DNA of 55,806 nt from Fibrobacter succinogenes (GTDB lineage Bacteria; Fibrobacterota; Fibrobacteria; Fibrobacterales; Fibrobacteraceae), in assembly GCA_902768715.1 (NCBI GenBank), contig CACXMH010000037.1:1-55806 (forward strand), in the 5' to 3' direction. The translations under genes were made by a program, and so were the position numbers. Below are positions 27,797 through 42,184 of the stretch, piece after piece (position 1 is the first letter of the stretch; each line of letters starts with the position of its first letter). The notes below the pieces were generated by a model, which saw only the letters and a list, made by a program, of their open reading frames with translations, searched no databases and was not told the DNA's origin.

Positions 27797-28588
27797 ATGT
27801 GGCAGAATCTCAATTTCAACTTTGAACCCTACGACTGGTTGCTCATCTTTATGGTGACGGCCCTGGGTACAGCCAGTGCCTACATGAAGGACCCGCAGCT
27901 CAAGGCGGTGGCGGCCACCATCCCGATTCCTTGCGGATTTGCCTACATTGCGGTTGGCCTCCCCATGGGAGCGGCCAACGCCATTTCGGCCCTGCTCTGC
28001 CTCATGTATGTTCATGTGGTACGCATCGGGCACAACAAGCTGCATATCCCTATCGTTCCCGCCATCATTATCGGGCTTGCCATTTTTGTACTTATCGGCA
28101 CAACGCTCCAGCCAATCGTTCCCGACAGCGAACCAGTATTTTACGGGGTCTGCCTCTTCGATTTCCTGCTAGGGATTCTCATTTTCATCAAGCAGCCCTA
28201 CAAGTCGGGAGTGCCCTACAAGACTCCCCTGCCGGTCTATATCAAGGCTCCGGCCATCGCCTTCGTGGTAGCGGGGCTCATGGTCATCAAGCGGCTCATG
28301 GGAGGGTTCTGCACCAGTTTTCCCATGATGAACTCCATCGTGAGTTACGAATCCCGCTATTCCCTGGGTGACCAGTGCCGGCAGCTGCCGTTGTTCCTGA
28401 TTGCAGGCCCAATCATGTTTATCGAGATGCGGCTTCTGGAAACACGGCTAGGGCTGAACCACTGGATTGTCCTTTTGTGCGGGTATATCCTTTTCGCCTT
28501 CATTTACTGGCCCTTGAACAAGCGGTTGAAACTGAAAAACGCCAAGGCGGATAGGGCCTACCGGCATTGGGTACGGCACCATGGATGA
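27797..28588 (+). CDS. Polytopic membrane protein of unknown function
   Basis: 263 aa with about eight hydrophobic segments, a conserved-looking GGFCTSFPMMN stretch near the middle and a basic C-terminus. No family recognised. It overlaps trmO by 8 nt and follows the phosphatidyltransferase by 27 nt, so it belongs to the same operon; a lipid or envelope role is only a guess. Confidence 0.6.
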   Translation: MWQNLNFNFEPYDWLLIFMVTALGTASAYMKDPQLKAVAATIPIPCGFAYIAVGLPMGAANAISALLCLMYVHVVRIGHNKLHIPIVPAIIIGLAIFVLIGTTLQPIVPDSEPVFYGVCLFDFLLGILIFIKQPYKSGVPYKTPLPVYIKAPAIAFVVAGLMVIKRLMGGFCTSFPMMNSIVSYESRYSLGDQCRQLPLFLIAGPIMFIEMRLLETRLGLNHWIVLLCGYILFAFIYWPLNKRLKLKNAKADRAYRHWVRHHG

Positions 28589-29261
28589 ATTCAATTTCAA
28601 GACCGTCGCCCGAATCAGGAGCGATTTCCCCGAAAAGTTCGGGATTCCAAGGCAGAGCGGAATCCTGAAGGAGCTCCGGTCGCAAATCGTCTTCGAAAAG
28701 GAGTTCCGCAATCCTGACGCCATACGCGGTCTAGAAGGATTCAGCCACCTGTGGCTCCTGTGGATTTTTTCCGAAAATGTCCGGGACACCTGGAAACCTA
28801 CGGTCCGGCCGCCCCGCCTGGGCGGCAACACCCGTCTGGGAGTGTTCGCCACACGGTCTAGCTTTCGGCCAAACCCGTTGGCCATGTCCTGCGTAAAGAT
28901 CGAAGAAATCCGTAACGACAAGGAAAACGGCCCTGTCATCGTAGTAAGCGGGGCAGACCTGATGGACGGCACGCCCATCGTGGATATCAAGCCCTACCTC
29001 CCCTACGCCGACAGCATCCCCGACGCCGTCGGGGGCTTTGCGGCAACCGCTCCGGAATCCAGGCTGCAGGTGGAAATCCCTGATGCCGAACTCCAGAAAA
29101 TTCCGGCGGAAAAACGCATCGCCCTGATAGAACTGTTGCGGCAGGACCCGCGCCCCCATTACCAGGACGACCCCTCACGAATCTATGGATTGAAATTCGC
29201 CGGGCACGAAATCAAGTTCCGCGTGCAAGGCGAATCCCTTACCGTCATTGATATAATATGA
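28581..29261 (+). CDS. trmO: tRNA (N6-threonylcarbamoyladenosine-37 N6)-methyltransferase TrmO
   Basis: 226 aa. TsaA/YaeB fold motifs: ARIRSDFPEKFGIPRQSG, GLEGFSHLWLLW, LGVFATRSSFRPNP, and LMDGTPIVDIKPYLPYAD with DPSRIYGLKF near the end. In E. coli TrmO methylates t6A37 of tRNA-Thr. It is the third tRNA-modification or processing gene in this stretch. Confidence 0.9.
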   Translation: MDEFNFKTVARIRSDFPEKFGIPRQSGILKELRSQIVFEKEFRNPDAIRGLEGFSHLWLLWIFSENVRDTWKPTVRPPRLGGNTRLGVFATRSSFRPNPLAMSCVKIEEIRNDKENGPVIVVSGADLMDGTPIVDIKPYLPYADSIPDAVGGFAATAPESRLQVEIPDAELQKIPAEKRIALIELLRQDPRPHYQDDPSRIYGLKFAGHEIKFRVQGESLTVIDII

Positions 29262-29276
29262 AAAATATTCTATCTT
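29248..29276 (+). promoter_or_regulatory. Promoter of the ABC-F gene, apparently giving a leaderless mRNA
   Basis: TTGATA (29248-29253), 17-nt spacer, TATCTT (29271-29276). The ATG is at 29283, where transcription should start. Confidence 0.5.
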
Positions 29277-29282
29277 TGGCCC

Positions 29283-30875
29283 ATGCTTAACGTTTCTAAT
29301 GTCAGTCTTCAATACGGTAGCCGCGTCCTCTTCAAAGAGGTGAACCTTTCTTTTAAGCGCGGCAACTGCTACGGAGTCATCGGCGCGAACGGCGCCGGAA
29401 AATCTACCTTCCTGAAAATCCTTTCGGGCGAACTCGAACCCAACACCGGCGAGGTCACCAAGGACCCGGGCGAACGCATCGCAGTCCTCAAGCAGGACCA
29501 CTTCGCCTACGAACAGAACACCGTTCTCGAAACCGTCATGATGGGCTTCCCCGAACTCTACGAGCTGGGCAAGAAGCGCGACGAACTCTATGCGCTCCCC
29601 GAAATGACCGAAGAACAGGGCATGCAGGCCATGGAAATCGAGACCCGCTTCGGTGAAATCGGCGGTTACGAAGCCGACTCCAACGCGGCCGTGCTTCTGA
29701 AGGGCCTCGGCATTCCCGAAGAATTCCACTACAGCCTCATGGCAGACTTGGACGCCGGCCTCAAGGTGCGCGTGCTCCTCGCCCAGGCTCTGTTTGGCAA
29801 CCCGGACATTTTGCTCTTGGACGAACCGACGAACCACTTGGATTTGGAAACCGTCGGCTGGCTCGAAGACTACCTCGAACGCTTCGAGAACATCGTGATC
29901 GTGGTGAGCCACGACCGTCACTTCCTCAATGCGGTCTGCACCCACACCTGCGACATTGACTACGGCAAGATCAACATTTACGGCGGTAACTACGAATTCT
30001 GGTATGCAGCTAGCCAGCTCGCCCAGAAGCAGCGCAAGGACCAGAACCGCCGCGCCGAAGAAAAGATCGAAGAACTCAAGGCGTTCATCCGCCGTTTCGC
30101 CTCTAACGCCGCCAAGGCCAAGCAGGCAACCTCCCGTAAGAAGCTCCTCGACAAGATGACCGTTGAAGAAATGCCGGCATCGAGCCGTAAGTTCCCGTGG
30201 GTCAACTTCAAGATGGACCGCGAACCGGGCAAGATCGTGCTCGAAGTCAAGAACGCCACCATCGATGGCGGCGACGGCATTATCTGCAAGAACTTTGACT
30301 TTAGTCTGAACAGCGGCGACAAAGTTGCCCTCGTCGGTGAATACGACACCCTGAAGACCGCATTCTTCCAGCTCATCGCCGAAGAAACCAAGGCTCCCGA
30401 AGGCGTGCTCAAGTGGGGCAACACCATCAGCTACAGCTATTTCCCGAAAAACAACGACGCCTACTTCGGTACGGACCTCTCCCTGGTGGATTGGCTGCGC
30501 CAGTACAGCAAGGAACAGGACGAAACCTTCATCCGCGGGTTCCTCGGCCGCATGCTCTTTACCGGCGAAGAAGCATTGAAGAGCGCAAACGTGCTCAGCG
30601 GTGGCGAGAAGGTGCGCTGCATGCTCAGCCGCATGATGCTCAGCAACGCGAACTGCCTCCTGCTCGACGAACCGACCGCCCACCTCGACCTGGAAGCCAT
30701 CACCGCCCTCAACAACGGCCTCACCGCCTTCCAGGGCCCAATCATCTTCTGCTCTCAGGACCACGAATTCGTGCAGACGGTGGCAAACCGCGTCTTGGAA
30801 CTCACGCCGAACGGTGTGCTTGACCGCAGCATCACCTTCGACGAATGGCTGGAGTCCAAAAAAAAGAAAAAATAG
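29283..30875 (+). CDS. ABC-F ATPase, YbiT type
   Basis: 530 aa. NBD1 has Walker A GANGAGKS (34-41), Walker B DILLLDEPTNHLD and VVSHDRHF; the P-site-tRNA-interaction linker with KIEELKAFIRRF...ATSRKKLLDK follows. NBD2 keeps LSGGEKVRC and LLLDEPTAHLD, but its Walker A reads GEYDTLKT without the GxGKS glycines, and its switch motif reads SQDHEF, so site 2 probably binds or hydrolyses ATP poorly. The overall order and the ALPEM segment match E. coli YbiT/EttA-like ribosome-associated factors. Confidence 0.87.
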   Translation: MLNVSNVSLQYGSRVLFKEVNLSFKRGNCYGVIGANGAGKSTFLKILSGELEPNTGEVTKDPGERIAVLKQDHFAYEQNTVLETVMMGFPELYELGKKRDELYALPEMTEEQGMQAMEIETRFGEIGGYEADSNAAVLLKGLGIPEEFHYSLMADLDAGLKVRVLLAQALFGNPDILLLDEPTNHLDLETVGWLEDYLERFENIVIVVSHDRHFLNAVCTHTCDIDYGKINIYGGNYEFWYAASQLAQKQRKDQNRRAEEKIEELKAFIRRFASNAAKAKQATSRKKLLDKMTVEEMPASSRKFPWVNFKMDREPGKIVLEVKNATIDGGDGIICKNFDFSLNSGDKVALVGEYDTLKTAFFQLIAEETKAPEGVLKWGNTISYSYFPKNNDAYFGTDLSLVDWLRQYSKEQDETFIRGFLGRMLFTGEEALKSANVLSGGEKVRCMLSRMMLSNANCLLLDEPTAHLDLEAITALNNGLTAFQGPIIFCSQDHEFVQTVANRVLELTPNGVLDRSITFDEWLESKKKKK

Positions 30876-30906
30876 CCTATTTTGTCAAAAATAGCCCCTT
30901 TTTCCC

Positions 30907-30935
30907 TTGACAGAGTGAATCTACATTTATATATT
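30907..30935 (+). promoter_or_regulatory. Promoter of tRNA-Asp
   Basis: TTGACA (30907-30912), 17-nt spacer, TATATT (30930-30935), 35 nt before the tRNA. Confidence 0.8.
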
Positions 30936-30970
30936 TGCTCCGTTGCTTGGGAAACCGGGCAAACCACAAT

Positions 30971-31046
30971 GGGGTGGTAGCTCAATTTTGGTTAGAGCAC
31001 CGGCCTGTCACGCCGGAGGTTGCGAGTTCAAGCCTCGTCTATCCCG
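30971..31046 (+). tRNA. tRNA-Asp (anticodon GTC)
   Basis: 76 nt. Acceptor GGGGTGG/CTATCCC (with G-T pairs), D-arm GCTC/GAGC, anticodon stem CCGGC/GCCGG with loop CTGTCAC, T-arm GCGAG/CTCGT with TTCAAGC. The accessory island begins directly after it, but I found no repeat of its 3' end that would mark an integrase site. Confidence 0.93.
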
Positions 31047-31049
31047 CGA

Positions 31050-31077
31050 AAGCCCTCTCAAAAGAGAGGGCTTTTCT
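31050..31077 (+). terminator. Terminator of tRNA-Asp
   Basis: AAGCCCTCT, CAAAAG-type loop, AGAGGGCTT, then a T-rich tail. Confidence 0.85.
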
Positions 31078-31089
31078 TATATTTCCACC

Positions 31090-31151
31090 TAGAGGGCCGA
31101 GCGCGGGACACCAGCGGCCCTCCCGGCCCTTCGGGCTTCGATCCCTAACGC
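31090..31151 (+). repeat. ~62-bp direct repeat, left copy
   Basis: Shares AGGGCCGAGC, then GCGGCCCTCCCGGCCCTTCG, GGGCTTCGATC and CTAACGCA with 33688-33750, in the same orientation. The two copies bracket the three-gene cassette 31247-33619. The remaining sequence to 31246 shows nothing recognisable. Confidence 0.75.
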
Positions 31152-31246
31152 AAAATTCACACAGCAGTCCTTACAAACCGTTCTAAGCGATATACATCAT
31201 CAAAAGAACTTCTTTGTGAATCCTACGCCGTTCAAACAACAGTAAT

Positions 31247-31711
31247 CTACAGCGAATATGATGCAGGAGTATTTACAACAATCAATTTCGCATTCAGTGC
31301 ACTGATTTTCTTCATGCCCTTTTGAATCAGTGGCGAAGATACAGGGAAATGGTTCTTACCTACAACAAACGCAAGTTTTTGTTGATCACAATCAGGATTC
31401 AGTCGAGGATCCGCAAGAGAAGTCTCAAGTTGTTTGATAGCGTGTCCAATATTACCACCCTTCAATTCTACAAAACAAAATAGCGGACTCGATCTTTCTA
31501 CAAGCAGCTTATCACAGCGCAAGCTGCTCTCTGCAGACGGGATAACACTCCCATCGACATTTACCTTCAGGCAAGACTTCTTTGACTTATTAACAAAAGT
31601 AATGCTGCTTTTCTGTTCTTCGAACTTGATGTTAGAATCCCTAGTCGAACAACAAGAGCCTTTGGGCAACAAACCCGCCCATTCCTTCAATGCCGATTCA
31701 AACTTTTTCAT
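31247..31711 (-). CDS. Putative PD-(D/E)xK nuclease-like partner of the AAA ATPase
   Basis: 154 aa. The centre reads LRCDKLLVE...FCFVELKGGNIGHAIKQLETSL: an acidic residue, a strand, then E-L-K and a helix, the usual order of a PD-(D/E)xK core (D87-region, E..K). It overlaps the ATPase gene by 4 nt (ATGA), so both are made together. A small nuclease-like protein coupled to an AAA_15/21 ATPase is a common defence-module layout, but I do not recognise this pair by name. Catalysis is inferred from the motif only. Confidence 0.6.
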   Translation of the reverse strand: MKKFESALKEWAGLLPKGSCCSTRDSNIKFEEQKSSITFVNKSKKSCLKVNVDGSVIPSAESSLRCDKLLVERSSPLFCFVELKGGNIGHAIKQLETSLADPRLNPDCDQQKLAFVVGKNHFPVSSPLIQKGMKKISALNAKLIVVNTPASYSL

Positions 31712-32877
31712 AGATCAAGCAGCCGGCTAAATTCGTTCGAAATATCCAGTGATGCAGAATCCAGGAACGACTGCGCAATCAGCCGGTTTTCCTTGTCCAT
31801 CAAGTTCTTTACGCGCCCGTTGCTTACACCATAAACGCGAACATCGTCAAAATCAACAAAATCCTTTTGACCCACAATCTTCTCAGCACTCTGCCTAGCA
31901 GCATCTCTCTTCGCTGCAGAATCGTGCGCCTGAATCAAATTATTCAACGAAGACAGTATATATGGGCTATGGGTACTTACAAACAAGGAATTGTTCGAAT
32001 TCCCGTTCAGCTTCTGGGCGAACCACTTAACAAGCCCGTACTGTGCCTTCGGGAATAGATTCTGTTCAGGTTCTTCAAGGAAAACCTTGACACCGCAATT
32101 TTTCAGGTAGTTATCGGCAATCCCCATATTTTTCAGTTTTGGGTCTTGCTCAATAATATCCTTAAGCATCAGGTCTGTCTGCATTTTCCGGAGACTCGCC
32201 GGCTCGGACACAAGCGAGATATCGAACAGATATGACAAAAGGGCATACTGCGGAATCAAAGACTGCAGGCCGCTTGAAGCATTAGAGAACTTCAACTGTT
32301 TCCCGTTCAATGCTACATGGTCCGACTTGTCCGCATCATCATAGAAATACGACACGCCCATATTCAGAATATCCAACTTGTGCCGGTTGTCAAAATTTCG
32401 GCGTGCCACATCCCATTCCGCCATATAGTTGCGAATGTTGTTGAACTTGTCAAAGTTTACATCGAGCCAATTTGGGATAGACGCAACAATGTTACGCTCT
32501 GCAGGGATATAGGTGTTTTTTGTACGCCTATAATTCCAACGCTTATTTGTCCATTCAAAATGCGTTCCAATGAGCAGATTCTTATCAAAGTTTATCTTGA
32601 ACTGTAAAGTCTCCGACTTATAGGAAATTTCAGAACCCGGATAGGCATAACCATCCAGTTTATGGAATAAAACCAAATGGTACTTTACCACGTCTGGATT
32701 TACCCAATCGCCCGGGGACTGAGTCAATTGAATATGTTTTTCAATCCAATTGCAGAAACTGGCAATTTTAAGGATAGTGCTCTTGCCCGAGCTCTGCGGC
32801 CCGACAAGGACATTAATCCTCTTGAAATCCACCACAGCCTGTTTGACAGGTCCAAAATTCTTAATTGACAGCTTCAT
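31708..32877 (-). CDS. SMC/OLD-like AAA ATPase (AAA_15/AAA_21 type)
   Basis: 389 aa from ATG 32877 (MKLSIKNFGPVKQAVVDFKR); a longer reading from 32916 adds a poorly conserved leader. Walker A GPQSSGKST (26-34), ABC-like signature NASSGLQSLIP, Walker B VKVFLEEPEQNLFP and VSTHSPYIL. No TOPRIM domain after it. It lies between a membrane-anchored protein gene (upstream, 40 nt) and the nuclease-like gene (downstream, overlapping), so it is likely the sensor or motor of a three-gene defence operon. Confidence 0.82.
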   Translation of the reverse strand: MKLSIKNFGPVKQAVVDFKRINVLVGPQSSGKSTILKIASFCNWIEKHIQLTQSPGDWVNPDVVKYHLVLFHKLDGYAYPGSEISYKSETLQFKINFDKNLLIGTHFEWTNKRWNYRRTKNTYIPAERNIVASIPNWLDVNFDKFNNIRNYMAEWDVARRNFDNRHKLDILNMGVSYFYDDADKSDHVALNGKQLKFSNASSGLQSLIPQYALLSYLFDISLVSEPASLRKMQTDLMLKDIIEQDPKLKNMGIADNYLKNCGVKVFLEEPEQNLFPKAQYGLVKWFAQKLNGNSNNSLFVSTHSPYILSSLNNLIQAHDSAAKRDAARQSAEKIVGQKDFVDFDDVRVYGVSNGRVKNLMDKENRLIAQSFLDSASLDISNEFSRLLDL

Positions 32878-32917
32878 ACCACAAAAATACAAATTCATCT
32901 TGTCACAAAGTGACAAA

Positions 32918-33619
32918 TCATGAGATTTTGGCGGATTTTTTGCCGTTCTTCGGAATTTTGCTTATATACGGTTCGAAATACTTATCGAAATTCTCATCGG
33001 AGAGTTCGTTGTTCCAGAAGGCCTCTATATCTCGTTCTAGCTCAATAACGTCTTGGGTGTTGGCCAACTTGTTCAGCATATCGAGCGCTTCCTGATTCAG
33101 CCAGACATCTTGCAAGGTGGCAACGCCCTTATCTGCGAAAGCTGCCCTCACCTGCTCAAAAGCCTTCATGAACACTTCCCTTTGCGTAAGGATAACCTGG
33201 AGTTCCCTTGAATTCAGTTCAAGGAATCTTTTCATAATCTTTTCTAATTGGCCTATAATCACCGGATCAGACTTAAAAATCAGTTTCGCCATGCCAAACG
33301 TATTGCAGACTAGACTTCTATGTTCCTGCTGTTTTTTCACGTTTGATTCATTCTGCAAAATTCCCAACTTGAGATTTACACTCGGGTATTTCGTAATAAA
33401 AACTCGCCCGCAATCAGCAAAAACCTTGTAGATATCAAGGATTCTGTTTTCTCGATCCAGCAGAAGTTTCTGCTCATGGCTGTTTTTTTGGAAACGATAT
33501 TGATACCAGGCAATCAAGATTGTCGCCACAACTAACAAAAGGGAGAACAAACCTAACACGCAGGTGTTAAGGAATGTAGAGTTGAGAAATTGGTCGGTAG
33601 CGAGCTCACAATAATCCAT
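32918..33619 (-). CDS. Single-pass membrane protein, first gene of the AAA operon
   Basis: 233 aa. One transmembrane helix (about 17-40, LGLFSLLLVVATILIAWYQY) and a long, helical, charged cytoplasmic part. No family recognised. TATATT ends 7 nt before ATG 33619, so the mRNA may be leaderless. Forty nt ahead of the ATPase gene, same strand. Confidence 0.62.
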   Translation of the reverse strand: MDYCELATDQFLNSTFLNTCVLGLFSLLLVVATILIAWYQYRFQKNSHEQKLLLDRENRILDIYKVFADCGRVFITKYPSVNLKLGILQNESNVKKQQEHRSLVCNTFGMAKLIFKSDPVIIGQLEKIMKRFLELNSRELQVILTQREVFMKAFEQVRAAFADKGVATLQDVWLNQEALDMLNKLANTQDVIELERDIEAFWNNELSDENFDKYFEPYISKIPKNGKKSAKIS

Positions 33620-33687
33620 ACATGGTAATATAATAACTTCTTTATTTAAAAAAGAGCAATCCCCGCTGCGCAGCCCCTTATACCCGC

Positions 33688-33750
33688 CTAAGGGCCGAGC
33701 ACAATATACGGGCGGCCCTCCCGGCCCTTCGGGCTTCGATCACTAACGCA
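33688..33750 (+). repeat. ~62-bp direct repeat, right copy
   Basis: Partner of 31090-31151; differs mainly in a ~12-bp inner stretch. It lies in the 164-bp gap between two gene modules. Confidence 0.75.
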
Positions 33751-33783
33751 GAAAGCGGAAAGCAAGATTCCCAAACGCCTATC

Positions 33784-34611
33784 TTATGGCGTACTCGCAT
33801 CCGAATTCTTCAATGTAATTACAAGCCTTATGATATTTCCTGTAGCGTACATAATGTATTCAAGAACATTTGATGTCGCTCTATCATGATGTTTTGCAAA
33901 ATCGTTATTGAAATGTGTATATGCTTCTAAAAGTTTTCTAAAATCATCAGAGATTTCAGATGGTATACCATGCTCCTTCAAAAAAGAGCAATACTCATTT
34001 ATTAAATTCTCTAGTGCTTTATCGGATCTAAATACTTCCTGGAAGAATCTCTCCAAAGCTTTGCGGAAACCATCCGCAACCTTACTAGGATTATCCGATT
34101 TTTCTGAATAATCCCGCAACGCTTCAGACCACGCCTTTTCAGCATCAGGATATTCTTTAAGCCACGACAAAGGTGCGGAAACTAGATTATCGTCAAATTC
34201 AGGGACTCCTTTCGGGAAAATAAAAATCCCATCTTTGTCAGAAATTAGTTCATATGGAATATTTAATTCCCCTAAACTTTTTTCAATAAAAGACCAAATT
34301 GCTTTTTTATAATTTATTCGACCACGATTAGAGTTTCCAGGCGTATAAGAATTATACAATGCAACGGCATTAACAACCACCTCTTTCAACGAAGCGCATT
34401 CTTGAAAAGAATTAGATACCTGATAAGACGAGTCATAACTTGTATTCCATGGTTTACCAATGGTAATAAAATACTCACAACAATCATTATCAGAGTATTG
34501 CACGCAATCTAAATTAGAAGTAAAATTACAAAACCTGTTTTTCAAAGCCTCAAACTTTGACTTATCATCAAAACCCAAGCCCAATCGTTCTCTATAGTCC
34601 GCCCATTTCAT
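33784..34611 (-). CDS. Protein of unknown function with an abortive-infection-like helical C-terminus
   Basis: 275 aa with a strong AGGAGG-type ribosome site before ATG 34611. The N-terminal ~100 residues are mixed; the C-terminal ~130 are helical (GFRKALERFFQEVF, EISDDFRKLLEAYTHFNNDF, AKHHDRATSNVLEYIMYATG). This tail is reminiscent of Abi-type C-terminal or HEPN-like bundles, but I do not see an Rx4-6H catalytic motif. It follows the cyclase-like gene by 27 nt and is probably its partner. Confidence 0.55.
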   Translation of the reverse strand: MKWADYRERLGLGFDDKSKFEALKNRFCNFTSNLDCVQYSDNDCCEYFITIGKPWNTSYDSSYQVSNSFQECASLKEVVVNAVALYNSYTPGNSNRGRINYKKAIWSFIEKSLGELNIPYELISDKDGIFIFPKGVPEFDDNLVSAPLSWLKEYPDAEKAWSEALRDYSEKSDNPSKVADGFRKALERFFQEVFRSDKALENLINEYCSFLKEHGIPSEISDDFRKLLEAYTHFNNDFAKHHDRATSNVLEYIMYATGNIIRLVITLKNSDASTP

Positions 34612-34638
34612 TGTTTTATTTCCTCCTTTTTTCGGCTT

Positions 34639-35640
34639 TTAACTATTTTCCGCATCAACTGAAGTATCTGCTGGTATTCGGAGTACGTCCTTCATTATTC
34701 GTTCATCGTATGTTACATTCAAATTCAAGACGAGGTCTTTCCTATTCACTTGAGCGCACTTGGTATTGTGATACACCCATGCCCATTTGTACTTCATGAT
34801 AATCTTCTCTCGTTCAAGAATCTTCTTTTCATCACGGAAATCAATATCGTCGTAATTACAGTACACCGCTATCTGCTTTTTAAGGACCGCCTTATGCAAG
34901 TTCAGCACCCTGCATTGAGCATCGTCCCTATCTTGATTCAAATGCCGCTGGATTTGCGCGGCATCCCCATTGTATTGGTCAGATAAAGCATTAATCAGCT
35001 GTTCCTCGTTACCCCTGATAAAAGGCCAAATGTCCTGAACAGTAATATAGTTCAAATAATCCAGGGTTTTGTAGGCAATCCCTTCAAAACGGATGAAGAC
35101 GCTTTTAATCCATGTTATAAAATACTGCAAAGACTGGTCATCAGCATATTTAGCAGTTAACGAGGTCAGAATATCCATTACGGCATCGTCTATCGCAATG
35201 AATGGATACTTGACAGCATGTTCCATTGCAACAACCTTGATCAAGACCTCGCCCACAAGATGCGATTCATCGATATAAAGGGGTCCCACAGAAATTCCGC
35301 CCCGTAGCAAGATTCCATGCTCTAGAACAAATTTTCTTTGAATGTCGATGATAGTCTGCAAAAATGTCAATATGCGAATAGGTTCAAGAGATGTATCGCC
35401 CTTCTTAAGGCAAACGAGAACATTATCAGAAAAAATCCGTTGATGAAAATCAATTTGTGCCAATTTCAGTATTTTGGATGATTGCATATTGTTGACAACC
35501 GCAATTGAATCATCTATTGCGGAGCACAAATCATCAATAAATTTTTGCGCAACTTCCCTGCCTTTGTTAAAGTTTTCCTTGTAGCCAAGGACATCGAAGT
35601 AGGCTGCGTAGTGATCTGATAATTCAATACACTTTATCAT
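34639..35640 (-). CDS. Class III nucleotidyl cyclase-like protein
   Basis: 333 aa. I choose ATG 35640 (MIKCIELSDHYAAYFDVLGY) because a consensus promoter predicts transcription starting there. Cyclase-fold signs: AAYFDVLGYKE with the first metal Asp, FSDNVLVCL with the second, then LLRGGISVGPLYIDE and VLIKVVAMEHAVKYPFIAID, the order seen in class III cyclases. The remaining C-terminal ~130 residues are of unknown kind. Such enzymes make cyclic nucleotides (cAMP/cGMP, or cCMP/cUMP in Pycsar defence). Product specificity cannot be read from the sequence. Confidence 0.6.
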   Translation of the reverse strand: MIKCIELSDHYAAYFDVLGYKENFNKGREVAQKFIDDLCSAIDDSIAVVNNMQSSKILKLAQIDFHQRIFSDNVLVCLKKGDTSLEPIRILTFLQTIIDIQRKFVLEHGILLRGGISVGPLYIDESHLVGEVLIKVVAMEHAVKYPFIAIDDAVMDILTSLTAKYADDQSLQYFITWIKSVFIRFEGIAYKTLDYLNYITVQDIWPFIRGNEEQLINALSDQYNGDAAQIQRHLNQDRDDAQCRVLNLHKAVLKKQIAVYCNYDDIDFRDEKKILEREKIIMKYKWAWVYHNTKCAQVNRKDLVLNLNVTYDERIMKDVLRIPADTSVDAENS

Positions 35641-35647
35641 ATGAAAC

Positions 35648-35676
35648 ATTCTAGCAAATAGATAAGATTCTGTCAA
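35648..35676 (-). promoter_or_regulatory. Promoter of the cyclase-like gene
   Basis: Reverse strand TTGACA (35676-35671), 17-nt spacer, TAGAAT (35653-35648); ATG 35640 begins 7 nt after the -10 box. The rest of 35677-35953 is AT-rich with no gene. Confidence 0.7.
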
Positions 35677-35953
35677 ATAACAAACATAATGTACTTGAAC
35701 CAAAGATGGATGTTTATTCCGAACAGTTTATCCCATCTTTTGACAGCCGATCCTAATATTTCAGTGTAGCCATTACAAGTGCATCCATCCTAAAAAATTG
35801 ATTAATCTCAGGTATTTTCAATTAATTCATTCTAATAAAGCTCGTCCTCTCCTTCCAAAGGAGGGCCAATCATATAAGCATCTACGGATAATAATAAAAT
35901 TTTAGTACTAAAAAATACTACAATTATAAAAACTTAATCCAATAGGAATATTT

Positions 35954-37657
35954 ATGTGCATAAAAAGCTTCTTTTCTAGGAAGGAAAAAACGGAAGAAAA
36001 GGGACCTAATCAAAATCACTTTGTTTCCGAAATTATTTTCAACAACAACAGTAAACTTGTACTAAATGACGGCGACATAGTTGTTTTCGTTGGAGCCAAT
36101 AATGTTGGTAAAAGCCAAGCATTAAACGACCTATATAGAAATCTTTATACATACGAGAAAGGAATCATCCTCAACTCCATAAAAATCAACAAGGAAAAAA
36201 TCAAAGAATTTTTTGACAAAAATTTTAAAACTATACGAGACAGGCACCAAAGACTCGTTTATAACGTTCCAATGTCCAATGGAATTTCAGATAATGAAAT
36301 AGAAATATATAACAAAAATTCATCTTACGGTCTCTGTAGAGAGGCATTTGTTGCAAATATAAACACAGAATCTCGATTATCTATATGCAAACCCATTGAC
36401 ATCCTTGATGATCACGAGATTGCTACCGCGCCACAACAACTGCTTACAACAGATAATAACAGAAAAGAGACCTTATCAAATAAATTTTTTAGAGCTTTTA
36501 AGAAAAGGATATTTTTGAATTATTACAACTCCAAAAAGATTAAACTTTGCATGGGAGACGACATCGTAATTGAAGGAGATGTTTGCGAGCAAACAATTGA
36601 CTCATTTGCAAAGAAACTAGATAATTACAAACTCATCAGCGAACAAGGTGATGGAATAAAGAGTTTTGCAGGTATTTTACTTTTTCTAGCTCTTGATTTT
36701 TATAGAATATTCCTAATTGATGAACCTGAAGCCTTTTTACATCCTCCTCAAGCACAAATAATGGGAAACATTATAGGTGAATCCATAAAAAATGACCAAC
36801 AAGCATTTATCTCAACACATAGCGAAAATTTTCTAAAAGGCTTGCTAGATACATGTCCAAATCGAGTAAAGATTGTTCGAATATCACGTATTGATGATAA
36901 GAACGATTTTGCGATACTAAATAACGAAGACTTAAAAACAGTTTGGAATGATTCTTTATTGAGGCATTCTAATATATTACAGGGACTTTTCTACAAAACC
37001 GTCATTCTTTGTGAAAGCGATTCCGATTGCAAAATGTATTCAATTATAGACAAATTTTTAAAAGAAAAGAATGGTATCTTACCAGAGACAATGTTTATCC
37101 ATTGTGGAGGTAAATCGCGTCTTTCAAAAGTCATCCCTATTTTCAAAGCCTTAAAAGTCAATTTAAGAATTATTACAGATATAGACATTTTAGATGACAG
37201 AAAAAACTTTGCAAGTTTTGCTCAGTCTATTGGAATCGAATGGAGCGATTTAAAGGAGGATTGGTTAACAATTTCTGATAGTATATCAAATATATACAAA
37301 TCTGTTAAGCGATTAACCATTAAAGAAATGGTGAAATGTGGGGAACCAGATTTGTCACAAAACGAAATTTCCGATTTAAAAAAATTACTTGATACGGAAT
37401 GTGGATGGAGCCAAATAAAAAAAGGCGGCTTTAAAATGCTCGGTAATGCTAAAGCCCAAGACGCATTTATTACCATTAATAAAAAACTTAACGAAAAAGG
37501 AGCATTTATTGTTCCCGCCGGCGAATTAGAAAGTCTCATAATTGGTTGTCAGGGCCATGGTCCTACTTGGGTTAATGCCGTACTAGAAAAATATCCAAAT
37601 CTAGAAGATAATATTTACGAAGAAATAAAAAAGTTTGTACAATCTTGGAATATCTAG
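35954..37657 (+). CDS. OLD-family endonuclease: ATPase fused to TOPRIM
   Basis: 567 aa. ATPase with Walker A GANNVGKS (47-54), signature-like QGDGIKSFAGIL, Walker B IFLIDEPEAFLHP and ISTHSENFL. TOPRIM follows: VILCESDSDCKMY (Glu), then RIITDIDILDD (DxD-type) about 65 residues on. OLD nucleases cut DNA in an ATP-controlled way and act in phage defence alone or with a helicase (Gabija); no UvrD-like helicase is adjacent, so this looks solitary. ATAGGAATA lies before the ATG. Confidence 0.83.
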   Translation: MCIKSFFSRKEKTEEKGPNQNHFVSEIIFNNNSKLVLNDGDIVVFVGANNVGKSQALNDLYRNLYTYEKGIILNSIKINKEKIKEFFDKNFKTIRDRHQRLVYNVPMSNGISDNEIEIYNKNSSYGLCREAFVANINTESRLSICKPIDILDDHEIATAPQQLLTTDNNRKETLSNKFFRAFKKRIFLNYYNSKKIKLCMGDDIVIEGDVCEQTIDSFAKKLDNYKLISEQGDGIKSFAGILLFLALDFYRIFLIDEPEAFLHPPQAQIMGNIIGESIKNDQQAFISTHSENFLKGLLDTCPNRVKIVRISRIDDKNDFAILNNEDLKTVWNDSLLRHSNILQGLFYKTVILCESDSDCKMYSIIDKFLKEKNGILPETMFIHCGGKSRLSKVIPIFKALKVNLRIITDIDILDDRKNFASFAQSIGIEWSDLKEDWLTISDSISNIYKSVKRLTIKEMVKCGEPDLSQNEISDLKKLLDTECGWSQIKKGGFKMLGNAKAQDAFITINKKLNEKGAFIVPAGELESLIIGCQGHGPTWVNAVLEKYPNLEDNIYEEIKKFVQSWNI

Positions 37658-38029: not shown

Positions 38030-39232
38030 TCAAGGTGTTGTTTGCTCAGACATATTCAAACAATCAAACAGCGCATCTAAAGATTCTTTTTGAATTTTTT
38101 CCTGCAAAATACCGTAAATTCCTTCGGTCGTAAAACCATCATATTTCTTTTTATCGTCCTCGCCTAAAGATTTAACAAAGGTTTCGTCTTTAACAATCTG
38201 AATTTTACCTGTTTGAGAGAGTTCAACACCAACCTTAGTCGGTAAAATGACGTAAGCATTATATGAGTCATCTTGATATAATCTTCCGTAGGTTTGTATT
38301 TCATCAACAACCATTAATAAGCAAGCCAAGAAATCCTTTTCAACATTGATTTTATCTTTTACATTAAAGTCATGGAGTAAAACAGCTTTGATAATTTCAA
38401 TAAAATCAGTTTTCTCAGTATTTTGCGAAGCAATAGCATCTTGCAATGTCAATGTATTAGAAAAAAATTCCACGCTCCTTACAAATCTATACAGAAGAAC
38501 AGCACTTTCATAAGAATGATGTTTTCTTAAAATTTTTGGACTATTTGAAATTCCAAATTTTTCTCGTATAATCCACCCATCAGTATAATTGATTGGTCCC
38601 TTCCAAATTTCAGAAAGTTCTTCTCCCTTTGACAATTCACAGACAATTTCCTTCTCTTGTTGAATATTCAAAATTTTACATATTCGAATAATCTTATAAT
38701 CAAAAACTGAATTCTCTTCCATTTCAACACCAATCAGCCACGATCTTATTGTATTGTTTATTCGATCACTATCCTCGCTAAAATACAAATAGCCCAAATC
38801 ATGATAAATAAACAAAGAAAAGAAAGTTGTCGTTAACAAGTCTTTTTTAGCATTTTTTTCGTGATTCAAAAATGCTGGTAATTGAGCATATAAAGAAAGC
38901 CCCAATAAAAAACATTGAATTGAATGATAATAATGATCTCTATACTTTACTTTAGCAATTCGCCTGTTATCCTGATATTGTTTCAAAAGATCAAAAGCCT
39001 CAGCTAAATTCAAATATAATTTATCAGAAAAACAATTAAACAAACTCGTTATCAACGCATTAATAGCATATGAATTATCCTCAATATGTTTTTCATAATC
39101 ATCGTTGACATTTTTATTCAATAAATTATTCAGTTCATTACAAATTTGAAAAACATCAGACGTAAAATCAGGAACATCCAATAAATTATACGCGGTAATT
39201 CCTTTTTCTATGAAGGTAAAAACATCAGTCAT
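38030..39232 (-). CDS. HD-domain phosphohydrolase-like protein, gene 4 of the candidate system
   Basis: 400 aa from ATG 39232, which overlaps the upstream gene by 8 nt. HD-superfamily ligands in order: H103 (DHYYHSIQ), H144-D145 (FIYHDLGY), H238/H239 (RKHHSYESA), H287-D288 (LLHDFN) and D310 (LMVVDEIQ). This matches a metal-dependent phosphohydrolase that could attack a nucleotide or a phosphodiester. The N- and C-terminal parts are unrecognised. It is the last gene of a four-gene overlapping operon from 42184. Confidence 0.68.
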   Translation of the reverse strand: MTDVFTFIEKGITAYNLLDVPDFTSDVFQICNELNNLLNKNVNDDYEKHIEDNSYAINALITSLFNCFSDKLYLNLAEAFDLLKQYQDNRRIAKVKYRDHYYHSIQCFLLGLSLYAQLPAFLNHEKNAKKDLLTTTFFSLFIYHDLGYLYFSEDSDRINNTIRSWLIGVEMEENSVFDYKIIRICKILNIQQEKEIVCELSKGEELSEIWKGPINYTDGWIIREKFGISNSPKILRKHHSYESAVLLYRFVRSVEFFSNTLTLQDAIASQNTEKTDFIEIIKAVLLHDFNVKDKINVEKDFLACLLMVVDEIQTYGRLYQDDSYNAYVILPTKVGVELSQTGKIQIVKDETFVKSLGEDDKKKYDGFTTEGIYGILQEKIQKESLDALFDCLNMSEQTTP

Positions 39233-40820
39233 TGCTATGTTCCTCCACAAGTTCATCAGAGGCATGCTGGTTATCGGAATCTTCTTTCAATATTAATGAA
39301 TTAAGATATTTACGATTTTCCCCAGGATTCAGCATAGACGCAAATTGTTTTTTTTCATTTTCCAATAAGAAAGAGACATATATCTCTATTATTTTCTGCG
39401 ACAAGCCATAGAAATCATTCTGACGCTTATTTAACAAGCATGGCATATACCATTGAATAGAACTTATCTCTTTTGAAACGTCTACGCCATCTTTTTTTAG
39501 ATGCTTTAACGCATGCAAGACAATTAAAAGAATATAGCTATCAAATTCATCTGTGGGATAATTGCTCAACTCAAAAATGTAGTCAGGATGGATATCATAT
39601 CTGAAAACAATTTTATTAAGCATATGTGGACATTTTTTTATTTGATTACACAAAATGCTTCCCAGATACGGTATATGGGAAATATACTTTCTGACATCAA
39701 CAATACTTTTCGAAATCCTTTGAGAAGGCAAATAACCAAACAAATCTTTATCAACATTTTTTTCTAGCAATTCAAACAACTTTCTACTAGGCAATGAATT
39801 TAACGCATTAAGTAAAAAAAGCATTTGGAGATCATCTTTAAGCTCTGGAATCCGATTAACAAACTTTTCATATTGAGGAAAATCGATTTCATATGAAGTC
39901 AAAAATGCTTTCATTGCAAAAATAATCAAGCATTTCTTATTATTGACATAACGAGTGAATATAAATTCATCAATAATATCTTTATGATTCTGCAACGAAG
40001 TTTTCTGAGCAAATATTTGTTCAGTATATAAATTTGCAAGAATCACTACAAAATTTTCAGCCTCAATCTCTAAATCACATAAAAGATTCAAACGGTCTTT
40101 TAACGACATTTCATCTTTTTTGTGCAAAATCCATTGTGCAATAAGCACCTTACAATAACAATCTTGAGTTTTGTTAGCAAACGCAACCCATTCTTGCAAA
40201 GTCCAATCAGGGAATTCATATAGAAGTCCTGAAACCATACAAGAAACAAGATGCAAAGAAACATAATATTTATGGTTTTCTATAGTACATATTTCTTTCT
40301 CTTTTTCAACAAGAGTATTGATTACCACAGCAGGGGCCACTGCAAAAACAGCCTTTAAAATTATGTAAAGACGGTAATCAATTTTCAAATCGCGAACAGA
40401 AATATCTCCATAATAATACTTTTCAGAAACAAGCCTTATACACTCATTAATTTCGCCGACATTCTCCAGCGATAACCCTTGTAGTATTTTTTGTTCAGAA
40501 GAAAAAACAGCCTTTTGCGATTCTAGAATTTTTACAACAATTAAATTAGCAAACTCATTTAATCCATCAACATATTTTATTTTTGAAAATAATAAAGAGA
40601 AAAATGATTCATTTTCAAGTAAATCGCATTCTTCATATTCTGCTTGAATCAAATTACAAATTCGTTTTTCAAAAATTTCATTATCAACTTTTTCATTTAA
40701 TTCTTTAAGCCAAAGAAGATCTTCTTGTATATTATCTTTAGATTTTTGAATTTCATCTTTAGAAATAGTAGGAACTGTTTTAACCTTTCTAATAGGGATA
40801 TTTTTTTTGCAAATATTCAT
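39225..40820 (-). CDS. Large helical protein of unknown function, gene 3 of the candidate system
   Basis: 531 aa, almost entirely helical in appearance, with Leu/Ile-rich segments and no recognisable motif, as in repeat-type scaffolds or sensors. ATG 40820 lies within the last 32 nt of the PLD-like gene, and an A8 tract sits just after the start. It ends 8 nt inside the HD gene. No homologue recognised. Confidence 0.62.
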   Translation of the reverse strand: MNICKKNIPIRKVKTVPTISKDEIQKSKDNIQEDLLWLKELNEKVDNEIFEKRICNLIQAEYEECDLLENESFFSLLFSKIKYVDGLNEFANLIVVKILESQKAVFSSEQKILQGLSLENVGEINECIRLVSEKYYYGDISVRDLKIDYRLYIILKAVFAVAPAVVINTLVEKEKEICTIENHKYYVSLHLVSCMVSGLLYEFPDWTLQEWVAFANKTQDCYCKVLIAQWILHKKDEMSLKDRLNLLCDLEIEAENFVVILANLYTEQIFAQKTSLQNHKDIIDEFIFTRYVNNKKCLIIFAMKAFLTSYEIDFPQYEKFVNRIPELKDDLQMLFLLNALNSLPSRKLFELLEKNVDKDLFGYLPSQRISKSIVDVRKYISHIPYLGSILCNQIKKCPHMLNKIVFRYDIHPDYIFELSNYPTDEFDSYILLIVLHALKHLKKDGVDVSKEISSIQWYMPCLLNKRQNDFYGLSQKIIEIYVSFLLENEKKQFASMLNPGENRKYLNSLILKEDSDNQHASDELVEEHSND

Positions 40821-41256
40821 CTACAAGATATTTCGAGTAAACGTCTTTAACTTGTAACGCAATCGGAAGTTCAAGTTCTTGAATAAAAAGGCTATAATTA
40901 TTAACAGTCCCATTCCAAGAATTGCTTAAACAATAGTAAATAGAATCATGACCATCATCAATGATCAGATATCTATCATGTAATTTATCTCTTTTGAGGT
41001 AATACACTTGAGCGTTTGAAAATGAATGATAAATTTCATTTAATAAATCAATTGATTCCGTTTTAGATTTAGAAGCAGAGTCTCTTGGGCACTCTGAAGG
41101 GTCGGTTGTTAAAATAGTCAAGCTAAAATATGTAGTCACACATGAATTAAAATCGTTTAACCCATTGAAATCAAAAAAAGGATCTATGATACATACATCT
41201 TTTGCTCTTTGCAATACATTTCTAGTCCAATCTAAAAAATTCTTTCTTGTAATCAA
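40789..41256 (-). CDS. PLD-like (single HxD motif) protein, gene 2 of the candidate system
   Basis: 155 aa. VCIIDPFFDF (21-30), then KLHDRYLIIDD (91-101) and SNSWNG (111-116) follow the pattern of a minimal phospholipase D/nuclease-like half-domain (H93...D100, with the K of HKD replaced). Two copies would be needed for the classical active site, so it may dimerise. Only a TTG at 41256 is available as start; it overlaps gene 1 by 35 nt and a T6 run lies in the overlap, so coupling or slippage is likely. Confidence 0.62.
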   Translation of the reverse strand: MITRKNFLDWTRNVLQRAKDVCIIDPFFDFNGLNDFNSCVTTYFSLTILTTDPSECPRDSASKSKTESIDLLNEIYHSFSNAQVYYLKRDKLHDRYLIIDDGHDSIYYCLSNSWNGTVNNYSLFIQELELPIALQVKDVYSKYLVDEYLQKKYPY

Positions 41257-42184
41257 GTTCTATATCAAAAACATCCTTCTTTCCATCAATAACAAAATTT
41301 GAATAGTCATTTAATGCAATCTCTTCTTTTTTCTTGCTAAGAAATCTATTTTGAATGATTTTATGATTTCCGCCACCGACATTCAACCCTATTGAAATAG
41401 ACCTGATTAAAGCGCCTCGTTCCTCAAAAACAATACTTGTTCTCCCTGTAGGATCTTTTTTGTATATAGAGAAATGTGTTCGGCCAAAATTTTCAAGTTC
41501 TTCTAATCCTGGGAGATTGATATTCTGGTCCGGCTCAAGATTATGAATTTCCTTGTATAGAATCTTGCCGTCATCATCAGGAATTTCAAGATCCAGCAAA
41601 TATGAACAATCCTTTTCTTTGTCAAAAGAATACGCTATATAGCGGCCACCTTTTTCCACATTAAAATTATATTTAAGAGAAAATCTAGGCAATCGCCTAT
41701 AAATAGCAATACTTCCGGGAAGTGATCCATGTTCTAAAATATCTAATCCAATTATTTTTTTTATTTCAGAAATCACATCACGCTGGATTTGCAACTTATC
41801 ATACTCAGAATAACAAGAATTTGATATTTTCTCAATCTTTTGGAGAAATACCGCGTATTTTTTTAGAAAATCAGCGTCATAATAGTTCTCTAAAAAAGAG
41901 CAAGCTGATTGATATGGAGATCCTTTTGTATGGCCGCAATCTATCGAAAGAAAAACAGGATTTCGTCTTTGATATTTTGAACCAATTTTTTCATCAAACT
42001 TTTTAAATTCTGTTTTCAGATCTATATCGTTGTTCACAGAAACATCATCAAAATTTGATCCCAAAAATTTTGTATCAACTTTTTCGACATCTGTCTCTAA
42101 CACGCTAGACCAAAACACAAGCGTATTATTTGGATCATTCTTCGCAGAAAGATTAAATTGTATTAAGACCTGATTTTTTGCCAT
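41222..42184 (-). CDS. Protein of unknown function, gene 1 of the candidate system
   Basis: 320 aa with a TAGGAAA ribosome site before ATG 42184. Beta-rich start (VLIQFNLSA), a FLSIDCGHTKGSPYQ segment near 80-95 and a late Gly-rich SIGLNVGGGNHKI (about 271-284). I do not recognise the family. It is the first gene of the operon and has its own promoter at 42223-42251. Confidence 0.6.
   Translation of the reverse strand: MAKNQVLIQFNLSAKNDPNNTLVFWSSVLETDVEKVDTKFLGSNFDDVSVNNDIDLKTEFKKFDEKIGSKYQRRNPVFLSIDCGHTKGSPYQSACSFLENYYDADFLKKYAVFLQKIEKISNSCYSEYDKLQIQRDVISEIKKIIGLDILEHGSLPGSIAIYRRLPRFSLKYNFNVEKGGRYIAYSFDKEKDCSYLLDLEIPDDDGKILYKEIHNLEPDQNINLPGLEELENFGRTHFSIYKKDPTGRTSIVFEERGALIRSISIGLNVGGGNHKIIQNRFLSKKKEEIALNDYSNFVIDGKKDVFDIELDYKKEFFRLD

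Follow-up and report, generated by a model that had tools for sequence, protein, structure and literature searches.

The window, that is the whole stretch of DNA analysed here, comprises 55,806 nt of the contig CACXMH010000037.1 of the rumen bacterium Fibrobacter, and all coordinates count from its first letter. Two adjacent open reading frames (ORFs) were identified on its minus strand: a gene of 275 aa (33784–34611), referred to as the partner, and, upstream of it, a gene of 333 aa (34639–35640), the product of which is predicted to adopt a cyclase fold over residues 1–197, followed by a helical C-terminal extension. The frame of the cyclase-fold gene ends with a stop at 34639 and is open upstream as far as a TTG at 35703; the ATG at 35640 is the best start, since the N-termini of its relatives (MEFSEYYVAYFDVLGY) place the beginning of the protein at or near this position. 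The two genes are separated by 27 nt on the same strand, and a GGAGG ribosome-binding site (34622–34626, minus strand) is located 10 nt before the ATG of the partner; on the basis of this spacing and the GGAGG, the genes probably constitute one operon that is read as a single transcript. A promoter-like site (TTGACA-17-TAGAAT with TG; 35648–35676, minus strand) matches at 11 of 12 positions and ends 8 nt before the ATG at 35640, and is not evidence by itself because 17 such sites were found versus 12.8 in shuffled sequences. The transcription start predicted from this best site (window 35640–35676) falls about at the ATG, and the mRNA of the cyclase-fold gene would then possibly lack a leader.

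The pair is located in a low-GC defence island that lies behind a tRNA-Asp gene (30971–31047), and the GC content drops from about 0.55 to 0.29–0.43 over 32–48 kb of the window. A gene for an OLD-family ATPase-TOPRIM protein (35954–37657, plus strand; Pfam OLD-like_TOPRIM, E 4.8e-8) is arranged divergently from the cyclase-fold gene. In addition, a four-gene cluster is found at 38030–42184 (minus strand), in which a VPA1262-like/NsnC-like protein is split over the ORFs 40789–41256 and 41222–42184; the two other proteins of this cluster have no significant family match. On its 3′ side the pair is bounded by a copy of a repeat of about 70 bp (33684–33764, plus strand), of which a second copy is positioned behind the tRNA-Asp (31085–31158, plus strand); no copy was detectable on the upstream side of the pair, and none is present between the cyclase-fold and partner genes.

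This direct repeat contains an AGGGCCG...CGGCCCT stem and a GCCCTTCGGGC hairpin, and ends in CCCTAACGC. At a threshold of E 0.001 it was detected in 37 of the 80 Fibrobacter genomes, in some of them through short partial matches; ten contigs carry three to six copies each, 46 in total, in one orientation per contig and at spacings from 0.5 to 11 kb. The modules that it bounds include AbiE, Gabija-like, AbiL-like and SIR2 genes, and the repeat delimits defence modules across Fibrobacter in integron-like arrays, a likeness that comes without an identified recombinase. Besides the window, loci that carry it include L007, L077–L079, L082, L085 and L100–L105. Integron attC sites carry the boxes RYYYAAC and GTTRRRY; the ends of the repeat do not fit these boxes, and its identification as an attC site was therefore rejected. 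An Rfam search gave no match for the repeat in the window stretch.

The neighbouring cassette in the window (31247–33619, minus strand) consists of three genes, which encode a protein of 154 aa, a PDC-M29A-like ATPase of 402 aa (E 2.6e-58) and a membrane protein of 233 aa. The same trio is also located between two copies of the repeat in L101, and parts of it recur in L100 and L078. Because it recurs between repeats in L101, it is regarded as a separate cassette and not as a part of the pair; for the same reason the 233-aa membrane protein (32918–33619), which had been considered as a PycTM-like effector, was discarded. A flank composed of a 226-aa gene, an ABC-F-like gene, the tRNA-Asp and the repeat is common to the window (28581–31158) and to L103 (158–2877) in another genome (G016), which points to the tRNA-Asp as an insertion site for different modules.

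Searches of Pfam, PADLOC and NCBIfam assigned no family above chance to the cyclase-fold protein, and only scattered near-chance matches were obtained from the same three collections for 20 of its aligned relatives; neither this protein nor the partner had a usable match in sequence searches of the PDB. The fold was recognised from a structural model. The AlphaFold2 model, computed from 16 sequences, has a pLDDT of 81.6 and a pTM of 0.84; a Foldseek search of the PDB returned 32 matches at E ≤0.001, all of them class III cyclases (best E 3.8e-5), and VIA-align superposed residues 1–197 on class III cyclases with a Z-score of 15.1 (3.2 Å over 163 residues). The assignment of this region of the modelled protein to the class III cyclase fold, which the initial annotation had set beforehand as a test of its proposal, is as secure as a prediction can make it. 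The highest hydropathy over 19 residues is 1.41.

To assess residue conservation, 34 relatives found in Fibrobacter, in spirochaetes and on plasmids were aligned. The motifs noted at the outset are all in frame: YFDVLGY (35581–35601), with the first metal aspartate D16; FSDNVLV (35413–35433), with the second, D72; and RGGISVGPLY (35275–35304), with R113 (all minus strand). D16, D72, R113, G19 and G119 are invariant in the 34 relatives, and E140 is conserved in 33 of them; the motifs are therefore no product of chance, and metal binding looks conserved in the family, as judged from the alignment. For catalysis, class III cyclases use the metal aspartates together with an asparagine and an arginine in a GDxVNxAxR segment. 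The structures 7yz9, 5o5k and 3mr7 share with the window protein the fold of residues 1–197 and both metal aspartates, and the RGG and GpA segments align with those of 3mr7; the positions of the class III asparagine and arginine, in contrast, appear to be occupied by I134 and A138, as read from a profile alignment with 3mr7 that is itself weak (E 0.12). Of the 34 relatives, five have an asparagine at position 134 and one has an arginine at position 138. The family also differs from class III cyclases by its own conserved E140, a PRI motif and the helical C-terminal extension, and by having no Pfam cyclase match. The arginine of the PRI motif is found in 27 of 34 relatives, whereas the window protein reads PFI (35197–35205, minus strand), and F147 occurs in it alone. 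Ordinary cyclase catalysis is therefore uncertain for the family on the evidence of its residues, and more so for the window copy, in which both the putative Asn/Arg positions and the family arginine are replaced. The replacements at the Asn/Arg positions weaken the putative cyclic-nucleotide part of the earlier interpretation; the retention of both metal aspartates in all of the very divergent relatives points to nucleotide chemistry.

The partner matches the PADLOC model PDC-S32, a phage defence candidate (E 1.9e-24), over profile positions 106–233 of 237. This match corresponds to its C-terminal half only (residues 140–268; 33808–34194, minus strand) and leaves the N-terminal half of PDC-S32 unmatched, whereas proteins from a spirochaete (L049) and a Lactobacillus plasmid (L050) match the model over its length. 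An AlphaFold2 model of the partner from two sequences has an overall pLDDT of 56.7 and is good only for residues 141–272, with residues 1–140 poorly modelled, and Foldseek returned no match for it under E 0.001. With VIA-align the best rows were mostly HEPN entries, led by 4z30, 8oz7 (AbiA), 2hsb, 2q00, 4nqf, 8xeh and others with Z-scores from 9.9 to 7.6, although values of 8–10 between helical bundles are suggestive only. The proteins at the head of this list are the HEPN-like Roquin ROQ region, AbiA, which has a C-terminal HEPN domain, AF_0298, HEPN-MNT and HepT. The model thus suggests that the C-terminal half of the partner has a helical, HEPN-like fold, in keeping with the abortive-infection-like helical end first attributed to this protein. 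The likeness to HEPN effectors, such as the C-terminus of AbiA (8oz7), HEPN-MNT (8xeh) and HepT (7bxo), is limited to a suggestive resemblance of the helical C-terminal fold. At the place where HEPN RNases carry Rx4-6H, the partner has NDFAKH (33889–33906, minus strand; N236, K240 and H241), so that the motif reads N236-x4-H241, with an asparagine in place of the arginine; the N, K and H of this NxxAKH motif are invariant in the three aligned PDC-S32 members. No TIR, cyclic-nucleotide-binding or other Pfam domain was detected in the partner, and no membrane segment was found (highest 19-residue hydropathy, 1.35), which agrees with the original description of a protein lacking TIR and membrane effectors.

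The distribution of both families was surveyed in Fibrobacterota, one spirochaete class and plasmids, with neighbouring genes called from ORF lists and checked with Pfam for L008, L080, the Treponema locus L039 and one NTPase. The cyclase family occupies 17 places in 15 of the 80 Fibrobacter genomes. Eight of these places adjoin hsdS of a type I restriction system, usually near hsdM: the order is hsdM-cyclase-hsdS at three and hsdS-cyclase-hsdM at two, and at the other three the cyclase has the same position relative to hsdS and is preceded by a DUF1016-like gene (two places) or an ATPase gene (one). Between the cyclase genes and hsdM or hsdS there is an overlap or almost no gap. At two further places the neighbour is a STAND/NACHT-type NTPase (L082 and L083; one of them Pfam-checked), at two it is a protein of 184 or 195 aa, and at two a protein of 222 aa, one copy of which is broken off; the rest are a truncated copy that follows a PDC-M29-like pair, a fragment and the window itself. 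In L082 (2506–9163), an Apea-like HEPN gene, a cyclase-fold gene and a gene for a STAND/NACHT-type NTPase of 1289 aa lie between two copies of the repeat. The 222-aa protein of L079 was considered as HEPN-like on account of an AYNKIKHER stretch, and this was rejected, as the profile comparison with PDC-S32 gave a probability of 0.1 and Pfam gave nothing; a PDB sequence search with it yielded nothing usable. Outside Fibrobacter, the order hsdM-cyclase-hsdS is found in a Treponema genome (L039), where a ThsB-like TIR gene comes next, and in another Treponema genome the cyclase precedes a gene that was judged by eye to be DNA methyltransferase-like. The restriction-linked loci (L008–L011, L039, L080, L081, L086 and L087) represent two Fibrobacter operon orders in addition to Treponema. 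Distant members of the family are found among metal-resistance, replication or unremarkable genes, which speaks against a link to defence as a general rule, and others adjoin AbiE or AAA/UvrD genes. In a tree of 34 relatives, which has long branches and an unsure deeper order, the restriction label needs two changes among the labelled groups and three over all rows, and the restriction-linked cyclases may have a single origin.

The partner family is distributed differently. Among 100 relatives PDC-S32 was found only in the window genome, and it was present in one of 297 spirochaete genomes, which had no cyclase hit. Without a cyclase gene in the stretches read, it is located near a type I restriction-modification operon (L049) and between methyltransferase and helicase genes (L050). 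A phage search yielded one match to the partner, on an Enterococcus phage contig (L076; E 4e-7), and none to the cyclase. No close relatives were found by exact-peptide scans of genome contigs with the window protein alone, or of viral contigs with the cyclase alignment, the partner and the partner alignment. Across everything searched, the window is the only place that has both families. The cyclase turns up often in defence operons; its pairing with this partner is unique to the window within the sample and is not conserved, and a fixed new pair of cyclase and Abi-like genes is not supported. Of the new cyclic-nucleotide defence pair that the initial annotation envisaged, the cyclase fold has held up, while the co-occurrence of the two genes has failed and the cyclase is found with varying genes, mostly those of type I restriction operons.

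With somewhat less than even confidence, we favour the tentative reading that the two genes form an abortive-infection module and that the HEPN-like protein is under the control of the cyclase-fold protein by way of nucleotide chemistry. As a putative metal-binding enzyme or sensor of nucleotides, the cyclase-fold protein would react to infection and switch on the HEPN-like effector by a nucleotide signal or a bound nucleotide; the partner would then harm RNA or growth, and the pair would act against phage. This reading rests on the fold, the metal aspartates, the likely operon, the HEPN-like C-terminus, the island, the repeat boundary and the defence operons of the relatives, and the support for a putative role in defence comes from the gene neighbourhood. 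It is opposed by the single occurrence of the exact pair, the replaced Asn/Arg positions, F147, the missing HEPN RNase arginine of the partner and the location of several distant cyclase members beside ordinary genes. The likelihoods given to this reading and to its rivals overlap in part and do not sum to one.

A doubtful yet serious alternative is that the cyclase-fold protein produces no diffusible messenger. It would instead bind a nucleotide and regulate its neighbour by direct contact, restraining or licensing it in the manner of an antitoxin or a sensor subunit; this neighbour would be the HEPN protein, HsdM/HsdS or the STAND NTPase. The replacement of the class III Asn/Arg in nearly all relatives is consistent with direct contact, as are the structurally unrelated partners, none of which, among those scanned, has a cyclic-nucleotide-binding domain, and the overlap or near-touch with hsdM and hsdS, as for subunits of one complex; the universal metal aspartates argue against it. 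It is unlikely that the two genes are chance neighbours with separate jobs in a gene-swapping island: the partner family does occur without a cyclase at L049, L050 and on the phage contig L076, and the cyclase without the partner in 16 other Fibrobacter places, but in the window the genes share a strand with a gap of 27 nt and no repeat between them, though repeats separate modules in the same island.

In Pycsar systems PycC is accompanied by PycTIR or PycTM; the present pair shares with them a protein of class III cyclase fold that has a putative effector next to it within a defence island. According to PMC11224242, the corresponding residues of EaPycC are F100, R142 and Q144; the aromatic Y14 (two residues before the first aspartate) and R68 (four before the second) of the window protein would take the places of F100 and R142, whereas position 70 is a phenylalanine where EaPycC has Q144. 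No PycC entry is among the PDB profile and fold matches listed, which says nothing either way. By the measure applied to Pycsar effectors, the partner has neither a Pfam domain nor a hydrophobic segment. It is quite improbable that the pair is a Pycsar system with a new effector, with cUMP or cCMP as the product of the cyclase and the HEPN-like protein as its receptor: the fold class, the metal aspartates, Y14 and R68 agree with it, but PADLOC and NCBIfam models gave no match above chance to the cyclase or to those of its relatives that were aligned, the partner has no detected cyclic-nucleotide-binding, TIR or membrane domain, and position 70 differs from EaPycC. The likeness of the pair to cyclase-effector defence is one of analogy at most.

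Beyond the preferred two-gene module, the occurrence of cyclase relatives inside other defence operons indicates that the protein may be a reusable part of several antiviral systems. A general form of this idea, which we consider rather unlikely, is that the cyclase-fold protein is a plug-in unit for nucleotide signals, inserted into otherwise self-sufficient defence machines. Its hosts would be type I restriction systems, between hsdM and hsdS, STAND/NACHT-type NTPases and HEPN effectors; restriction and other defences would thereby be coupled to a nucleotide messenger or sensor, and the window pair, which unlike the restriction operons has no restriction genes beside it, would be the smallest form, with one unit and one effector. 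Among the papers listed by literature searches, none was seen to report a link between a cyclase and restriction, HEPN or hsdS/hsdM, nor to deal with PDC-S32 or with integron-like cassettes or defence in Fibrobacter. Those of the plasmid records listed that name a member of the cyclase family call it a "hypothetical protein" or "hypothetical conserved protein", and no Pfam or NCBIfam model exceeds chance in the members scanned; for these reasons surveys of defence genes may have missed the family. If the proposal is correct, nucleotide signalling would reach restriction-modification and STAND-type systems, beyond CBASS, Pycsar, Thoeris and type III CRISPR.
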